Shown in pieces: positions 43,145-44,047 of a DNA stretch of 64,000 bases. Positions within the stretch are counted from its first letter, which is position 1. Each line of letters opens with the position of its first letter. The notes beneath the pieces are model-generated. The model did no database searches, was not told where the DNA came from, and worked only from the letters and a program-made list of their open reading frames with translations. The DNA comes from an uncultured Bacteroidaceae bacterium (lineage in GTDB: Bacteria; Bacteroidota; Bacteroidia; Bacteroidales; Bacteroidaceae): positions 33,010-97,009 of the forward strand of contig CAJOLZ010000005.1 in the NCBI GenBank assembly GCA_905235575.1, written 5' to 3'. The position numbers and the translations under genes were made by a program.

Positions 43145-44047
43145 ATGCGACCCATTCTGACCATCACCGGAAGCGATTCTACGAGTGCGTCGGGCATTCA
43201 GGCCGACATCAAAACCATATCGCAACTTGGCGGATATGCCGTGACGGCCATCACCAGCATTACGGTGCAGACAACGCTGGGCATCCAGGAGTTTCACGAC
43301 CTGCCTGCCGACATCGTTCGCGGACAGATAGAGGCAGTGATGAACGACGTACAACCCGATGTGGTGAAGGTAGGCATGATTCGCTCACGCGACGTGATAG
43401 ATGTGCTTGTCGACATCCTTCAACGCTACCGTCCCCGCCATGTCATCTATGCGCCCGTGGTGCTTTCAGCCCAAGGCGAGCCGCTGCTCGACGAGCAACT
43501 GGCACTCGACATCAGACAGCGCCTTATTCCGCTCTGCACGTTGGTGGTTCAGAAAGATATCCATTCGCAACATGGTATGGCCAACCGCTATGCCAGTGCC
43601 GTGGCTACGTTCCTGAGCAGGGGCGACACGCCGGCCGAGGCGCAGCGCAAGGCACAGCAGTTTGTCGATTCGGAAGCGCTCCGCGATGTCCGTCTGCAGG
43701 GACGTGGGAGCGAACTTTATGCCGAATTTCTTGATGCCGTTACACAGCACTGCCGGACAAACAGCGACGTGCAATTCTATGCCAACCTGCTGAATGTCAG
43801 CAGCCGTTATCTGGCACAGGTGACACGTCGCATGGTGGACAAGACGCCAAAGATGCTCATCGACGGGCGCTTGCTTCAGGAGGTGGCAACGCTCCTGCTG
43901 TCCACCGACCTCACTGTTCAGGAGATAGCCTACGCATGTGGCTTCTCGTCGCAGGCTCATCTCACGAAATTCTTCAAGAAAAACAAAGGCGTAAGCCCCA
44001 CGGTTTTCAGAAAAAACACTGCAAATCCTACCAATATTAATTTATAG
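43145..44047 (+). CDS. ThiD/pyridoxal-kinase-like domain fused to an AraC-type DNA-binding domain
   Basis: A 300-residue fusion. Residues 1-135 follow HMP/pyridoxal kinase of the ribokinase fold closely (TITGSDSTSASGIQADIKT, VGMIRSRDVIDVLVD), including the substrate-side pocket. After LIPLCTLVV (about 127-135) about 75 residues of the normal kinase are missing, including the KGGH region, and the GTGC catalytic motif is replaced by HGMANR (143-148). The remnant continues to about 180. Residues 205-292 are an AraC helix-turn-helix pair (VQEIAYACGFSSQAHLTKFFKKNKGVSP). It starts the operon with pdxS 4 bp downstream. The reading I prefer is a catalytically dead vitamer sensor controlling pdxST; automatic pipelines would call it a kinase. 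Confidence 0.8.
   Translation: MRPILTITGSDSTSASGIQADIKTISQLGGYAVTAITSITVQTTLGIQEFHDLPADIVRGQIEAVMNDVQPDVVKVGMIRSRDVIDVLVDILQRYRPRHVIYAPVVLSAQGEPLLDEQLALDIRQRLIPLCTLVVQKDIHSQHGMANRYASAVATFLSRGDTPAEAQRKAQQFVDSEALRDVRLQGRGSELYAEFLDAVTQHCRTNSDVQFYANLLNVSSRYLAQVTRRMVDKTPKMLIDGRLLQEVATLLLSTDLTVQEIAYACGFSSQAHLTKFFKKNKGVSPTVFRKNTANPTNINL

Follow-up and report, generated by a model that had tools for sequence, protein, structure and literature searches.

Regulators that pair an enzyme-related vitamin domain with a DNA-binding domain are known from archaea, where RbkR (riboflavin) and ThiR (thiamine) control vitamin genes. For the synthesis of pyridoxal 5'-phosphate (PLP), the MocR-type regulator PdxR has been described in several Gram-positive bacteria; there, apo-PdxR is reported to activate the PLP-synthase genes pdxST, and PLP to act as an anti-activator (PMC5320631). 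The subject of the present analysis is a putative regulator gene of different make-up, located at positions 43145–44047 (forward strand; 300 residues, ATG start, stop codon at 44045–44047) of a 64,000-nucleotide stretch of DNA from an uncultured Bacteroidaceae bacterium, hereafter the window. The gene encodes a ThiD-like pseudokinase domain fused to an AraC-type domain, and is followed directly by pdxS and pdxT. We consider it probable, on the strength of sequence comparison, that the product is a transcription factor controlling the PLP-synthase operon by means of a ThiD-derived sensor of a B6 vitamer and an AraC-bound operator, and that it is likely to act as an activator.

Domain architecture and loss of catalytic motifs

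The N-terminal part of the protein matches the Phos_pyr_kin family (PF08543) above the Pfam cut-off, with a whole-protein E value of 2.1e-42 and the best stretch at residues 11–135. Alignment with ThiD, i.e., the hydroxymethylpyrimidine (HMP)/HMP phosphate (HMP-P) kinase, ends at about residue 135 and restarts at the HG of HGMANR (residues 143–148; 43571–43588), which takes the position of the catalytic HGTGC of ThiD. The substrate half of the domain, including an eight-residue remnant of the deleted ATP-side segment, occupies 43145–43570. A first-pass annotation, made from the window alone, had estimated that about 75 residues were lost; the ATP-side segment is indeed gone, but the size is smaller, as the eight residues correspond to 71–73 in three Bacteroidales ThiD proteins, leaving about 63–65 missing. 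The full-length kinase model TIGR00097 aligns with residues 4–134 only and scores 134.4 bits, which does not reach its cut-off of 204.95. Residues 212–290 (43778–44014) form an AraC-type double helix-turn-helix, recognized by PF12833 (E = 3.3e-21) and PF00165 (E = 7.8e-11), both above the curated cut-offs. The stop codon is separated by 4 nt from pdxS (44052–44933, forward strand; PLP synthase lyase subunit, NF003215, 503 bits, over cut-off), the single pdxS of this genome, which in turn overlaps pdxT (44930–45499, forward strand; glutaminase subunit, TIGR03800, 188 bits, over cut-off); both are probable targets. The fusion and its placement 4 bp before pdxS, as first described, are thus borne out by Pfam, by the coordinates of the open reading frames and by 80 other loci with the two-domain gene (the best 80 of 227 relatives).

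These 80 proteins, five further ones and the window protein, i.e., 86 fusions of which a few are near-identical or from the same genome (L007/L031), were compared with respect to catalytic and substrate-side residues. GTGC, HGTGD and TPN are absent from all 86, which, together with the ThiD alignment, upholds the initial observation that GTGC is replaced by HGMANR; HGTGC and HGTGD are likewise absent from 75 additional fusions that came from the family survey described below, some of which are from the same genomes as the 86. The middle, ATP-side segment is long (70–75 residues) in 16 of the 86 and shortened in 70, with lengths of 47, 46, 43, 40, 35, 29, 27, 21, 14, 12, 11, 8 and 7 residues; the 75 further fusions comprise 24 long and 51 shortened forms. 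The substrate half had been described as well kept, and so it is: G9, D11, D21 and Q42, which we take to be HMP-contacting residues, are almost invariant over the 86 fusions and all retained in the window protein, and every one of the 70 shortened forms has G9, D11, G17, D21, Q42, G46, G77, H143 and G144. Arg80 is present in 70/70 shortened and 13/16 long forms and absent from four ThiD-like references, and Asn147, at the position of the ThiD cysteine, is found in 67 of the 70 shortened forms. A chance product or a decaying gene was considered and rejected, because the 86 homologues share the motif losses and yet retain the substrate side.

The ThiD-like domain would accordingly be a former ThiD that is not expected to phosphorylate, since it has lost its catalytic GTGC along with most of the ATP-side segment. 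The source databases label several relatives (P0033, P0054, P0108 and P0115) as HMP/phosphomethylpyrimidine kinase, and this label, like the PF08543 match above cut-off, would fit a protein that has kept HMP or pyridoxal kinase function and carries AraC as an accessory domain. Such a kinase is nevertheless highly improbable in view of the TIGR00097 score (134 against 205 bits), the motifs missing from all 86 fusions and from the other 75, and an ATP-side segment of 7–47 residues in 70 of the 86. The database name is a probable misannotation, and one that would mislead vitamin-pathway reconstructions.

The pattern of loss and conservation also bears on the function of the former kinase domain. 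If the fusion regulated pdxST with the ThiD-like part serving as a dimerization scaffold, or binding a protein such as PdxS or PdxT and no small ligand, the repeated loss of large pieces would be expected once catalysis no longer mattered. The losses are, however, limited to the ATP side, the substrate side is nearly invariant in the 86 fusions, and Arg80 is fixed in a position where the four ThiD-like references lack it, which makes a scaffold function unlikely.

Genomic linkage to the PLP-synthase genes

The 80-locus set spans Prevotella, Segatella, Hoylesella, Phocaeicola and other Bacteroidales. In 66 of these loci pdxS is located directly downstream of the fusion, on the same strand and within 300 bp; it is elsewhere in the locus in six and not in the locus in eight. 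Nine exceptional genomes (those eight and L043) were searched for pdxS, and a match was found in seven.

A neighbourhood survey, which had been set beforehand as a possible refutation, revealed strong linkage to vitamin B6. Among 399 genomes of the family, pdxS is matched in 86, including all 75 that carry a fusion; pdxS occurs alone in 11 genomes, and neither gene in 313, so that 313 of the 324 fusion-less genomes are without pdxS. A fusion was defined here as a hit from position 1 of the C-terminal model with at least 172 bits (76 hits in 75 genomes), which left out one 143.8-bit fragment and, among the matches listed, others of at most 128 bits starting at positions 21–44, and weak fusions may escape this definition. 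With respect to pdxS, 55 of the 76 fusions stand directly before it, 6 are within 1.3 kb and 3 are divergent; a further 6 lie farther away but share its contig, and the remaining 6 are on a different one. Where pdxS occurs without the fusion, no MocR regulator was recognized by eye near it in 14 of 18 loci, L136, L139, L140 and L141 having been left out. One locus fetched as a fusion-less pdxS locus, L146, contains a long fusion.

As a separate observation, seven genomes of one genus of the family (g3; L132–L138) have pdxS without a detected fusion, and no adjoining regulator was seen by eye in the six that were viewed.

A putative operator at a fixed distance from the promoter

A 44-bp putative operator with the matrix consensus nTTgtACAAAaTGAnGTTTtcTTTGTCAaaAnggGAACttnttT is located at 43033–43076 on the forward strand. 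It contains two similar boxes about 20 bp apart, TTATACAAAGATGTATT (box 1, 43034–43050) and TTGTCAAAAAGCGAAC (box 2, 43055–43070), as derived from an alignment of 48 sites, the division into boxes being our own reading. A −7 promoter box, TTCCTTTG (43099–43106, forward strand), assigned by the Bacteroidetes promoter consensus, follows 28 nt after box 2. The likely control site lies just upstream of 43076–43144, the stretch suggested for a gel shift in the first-pass annotation.

The operator matrix was trained on the upstream regions of 18 linked loci, with the window held out. The window site scores 36.6 bits, and the runner-up in the 64 kb, both strands considered, scores −0.7. In the 80-locus set and the pdxS loci, 59 non-redundant sites, including 16 at training loci, score 15 bits or higher; 46 are positioned before the fusion, 12 directly before pdxS and 1 elsewhere, and in 58 of the 59 a T...TTTG[CT] box occurs 28–29 nt past the operator. 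The 12 pdxS-side sites have their middle 75–96 bp (once 255 bp) before the pdxS start. Five of them (L037, L044, L073, L074 and L077) sit between fusion and pdxS, and at the other seven the fusion is at least 2.4 kb off or on another contig. When the 12 pdxS genomes of the 80-locus set with no fusion within 300 bp upstream are considered, a site scoring 15 bits or more is present at pdxS in seven, L057 has a weak pdxS site (12.3 bits), L036 has a site before the fusion, and no operator was found in L083, L089 and L093. Seventeen fusion-less pdxS loci used as controls have no operator (best upstream score −8.0), six of the 17 being from the order-wide short-form search, so that their genomes may hold a long fusion at another place. 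The operator is also absent from the long-fusion loci L146, L150 and L151 scanned alongside.

An unselected scan covered the remaining 75 fusions of the survey, each with its own region and that of pdxS; some are in genomes of training loci. Of the 51 shortened forms, 36 score at least 15 bits, the site being before the fusion in 27 and before pdxS in 9; 13 score 0–15 bits with the −7 box in place, and two have none. A later sequence model was built from 48 sites, including that of the window and many of the 80-locus set; with this model, the window site is the sole match in its own genome at E ≤ 0.05 (E = 5e-7), and 15 of 18 genomes of the 80-locus set have a single strong site each. The best matches in G731, G735 and G737 (L050, L069 and L072) have E values of 0.014–0.03, and a match in G333 (E = 0.0057) falls before pdxS. 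No second operator target was seen in the window's own genome and the 15 genomes, in which weak sites would escape. The proposed control of pdxST is thus supported by linkage and by the putative operator before the fusion or pdxS in most shortened forms, and the window gene very probably regulates these two genes.

Two side observations concern the operator. At L064:406–3562, two near-identical operator copies, scoring 31.6 and 20.7 bits, enclose a stretch in which a gene for a DNA C5-methyltransferase-like protein and other genes were recognized by eye, as if an island had been inserted and the promoter region duplicated. Among the long fusions, the operator is missing at both fusion and pdxS in L199, L201, L202, L207, L211–L214, L218 and L225–L227, and further cases are L231–L233, L240–L244, L250, L265 and L268; these loci represent twenty long fusions of the family survey, several of them from genus-mates of the window.

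Co-expression in Prevotella bivia

In a study of triple-species biofilms, pdxT (3.43), pdxS (3.03) and PREBIDRAFT_RS05120 (2.68) of P. bivia are reported among the ten most raised genes, of 39 differential genes in total, and PREBIDRAFT_RS05120 is labelled bifunctional HMP kinase; agreement with quantitative polymerase chain reaction was mixed, that for pdxT being consistent (PMC11410844). In the P. bivia genome (L072) the fusion adjoins pdxST. The genes for a phosphate transporter (PF01384) and a DUF47 protein (PF01865), which were equated with the tags RS05230 and RS05235, are 21 and 22 open reading frames after the fusion, as compared with 22 and 23 predicted from the tags, and RS05120 therefore corresponds to the fusion within one gene.

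Proposed mechanism and ligand

We propose that the fusion gene, usually the first of the PLP-synthase operon, controls that operon. The N-terminal former ThiD would have retained its substrate side as a sensor site, and the AraC domain would bind the two-box operator that adjoins the promoter on its upstream side, where it would most likely recruit RNA polymerase in the manner of activators positioned beside the −33 element. The molecule sensed would most likely be PLP or another B6 vitamer, and pdxST would be transcribed under B6 shortage. The sequences themselves show the architecture, the motif losses, the conserved residues, the co-occurrence and the operator with its constant spacing; binding to DNA, the ligand, and activation with its direction are what we infer here. 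Low-B6 activation with PLP as ligand is suggested by the operator spacing and the kept substrate side in conjunction with the PdxR precedent.

For AraC-type activators, the operator ends shortly before the promoter, with constant spacing. A repressor that occupied the operator under PLP abundance and turned pdxST off would produce identical genomic evidence, and known vitamin regulators include repressors. In 58 of 59 sites, however, the putative operator stops short of the promoter with 28–29 nt separating it from the −7 box, which is where an activator would be expected. Repression therefore appears doubtful, and activation of pdxST by the window protein is fairly likely.

The ligand of the window protein is likely to be a B6 vitamer. 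The ThiD-type fold entries 4c5l (Staphylococcus aureus) and 4ywr (Acinetobacter baumannii ThiD) were, according to their titles, solved with pyridoxal or a pyridoxal compound, and this type of pocket can therefore accommodate B6 vitamers. Descent of the domain from the ThiD family and retention of the residues presumed to face HMP would also suit a regulator of pdxST that senses HMP or another compound of the thiamine pathway, and so couples vitamin B1 to B6. The genome of the window, which is 87.6% complete, has no thiE match, however, and a strong one (E ≤ 1e-20) is found in only 32 of the 75 fusion genomes, many of which are incomplete; the other 43, including that of the window, have none or only matches above this value, and pdxS is present in all 75. 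No thiamine genes were noticed by eye beside the fusion in the loci viewed, among which no systematic search was made. A B1 role is consequently less likely than one in B6, and thiamine-pathway sensing by this regulator seems quite improbable.

Several findings weigh against the proposed B6-responsive control of pdxST. The co-occurrence of fusion and pdxS has a Fisher value of 9e-70, which overstates independence because the genomes are related. Two genomes, L047 and L051, have the fusion and the operator yet no pdxS match. The long, unlinked fusions of P. aurantiaca and P. falsenii (L089:4983–6158 and L093:4983–6143), with the motif HGSGG, have no operator at the fusion or at pdxS. Among the long forms of the unselected scan only 2 of 24 reach 15 bits, 2 are weak and 20 have none; among the shortened forms, the operator is absent from G701 and G714. 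Of five surveyed shortened fusions located on another contig or farther from pdxS, three have a 15-bit pdxS site, one scores 0.1 bits and one has none. Among genus-mates of the window, the operator model gave no match for the long-form G307, G311 and G337 and a weak one for the short-form G333. The P. bivia site is weak (3.1 bits), and the P. bivia data represent co-expression in one condition rather than control. The retained residues, finally, do not appear to separate PLP from pyridoxal or HMP.

As 36 of 51 shortened but 2 of 24 long forms reach 15 bits, the putative operator is a trait of the shortened lineage, the window gene included, and for the long forms the proposed control of pdxST draws on gene order and co-occurrence. 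The fusion in L047 and L051 may control B6 uptake. At these loci (L047:4986–5936 and L051:4983–5930) the next gene after the fusion resembles, by eye, a signalling protein.

Distribution and evolution

A homologue search returned 2705 proteins at E ≤ 0.001, and both domains are present in all of the 120 matches listed. Outside the order, a search at E 1e-30 of 117 further genomes from the phylum, of which the 20 listed belong to the same class, revealed no fusion. An order-wide search with the short-form model gave 8 of 295, a lower bound, since this model misses long fusions (e.g., G151 in L146), and one into which plain ThiD is mixed.

A tree of 84 rows was calculated by a quick method, without bootstrap and with the middle segment left out, and it has many open forks. 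The fusions split from the four ThiD-like references with a support of 100, every long form is placed apart from the group containing the majority of the shortened ones, and a minimum of seven changes of length class is required. The placing of the long forms, and the lack of GTGC and TPN in any fusion, suggest that the catalytic motifs were lost before the ATP side. On balance, we favour the view that the fusions constitute a new class of B6-sensing factors, so far seen only in Bacteroidales, in which a kinase of the ThiD type was turned into a sensor of PLP. In this view, catalysis was lost first, the ATP lobe was whittled down in several lineages and Arg80 became fixed; the shortened forms would switch pdxST through the fixed-distance activator site, and the long forms would read a different site.

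Two genomes have additional genes of these families. In G018, a long fusion divergent from pdxS (L014) is accompanied by a second, shortened and fast-evolving fusion at L008:1489–2403, which has no adjoining pdxS and a weak operator score (9.0). The genome of the window has a second ThiD-like gene at L001:1456–2250, with GTGD for GTGC and an altered substrate motif, DEDTER for the usual VQNT; its product is possibly not ThiD but a salvage kinase, for B6 or otherwise.

Comparison with known regulators and enzymes

In the literature searched, the scope of which excluded most subscription papers and regulator databases, we found neither a description of a ThiD–AraC fusion nor any regulator described as controlling PLP synthesis in Prevotella, Segatella and their relatives. 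If the proposal is true, it supplies such a regulator for these bacteria, which abound in the gut and the rumen. With its long and progressively shorter forms, the family would further present an enzyme becoming a sensor through loss of its cosubstrate lobe, and the operator and the retained residues render the sensor idea directly testable.

Enzyme-derived vitamin regulators are already known, and it is the pairing of a ThiD pseudokinase with AraC that appears to be new, as far as the searched literature shows. RbkR and ThiR differ from the fusion in their vitamins, enzyme folds and DNA-binding domains, and are archaeal. The fusion and the MocR-type PdxR have in common a regulator gene beside pdxST and an enzyme-derived sensor domain. 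PdxR, however, combines GntR with an aminotransferase-like PLP-binding domain, whereas the fusion combines AraC with a ThiD-derived sensor; the window protein has no Pfam match to a GntR or aminotransferase-like domain at E ≤ 0.01 and is thus distinct in sequence from PdxR, as originally claimed. With ThiD (TIGR00097, PF08543) the fusion shares the fold and the substrate half, but it lacks GTGC and TPN, has its ATP-side segment deleted and has gained an AraC domain. The same fold is found in the ThiD-type pyridoxal kinases of Bacillus subtilis (2i5b) and S. aureus (4c5l) and in A. baumannii ThiD (4ywr); these are known or presumed to be enzymes, have an ATP lobe and are not DNA-binding. With the AraC/XylS factors, which bind two repeated half-sites near the promoter, the fusion shares the C-terminal double helix-turn-helix; the conserved two boxes at a fixed distance from the −7 box may be half-sites of this kind.
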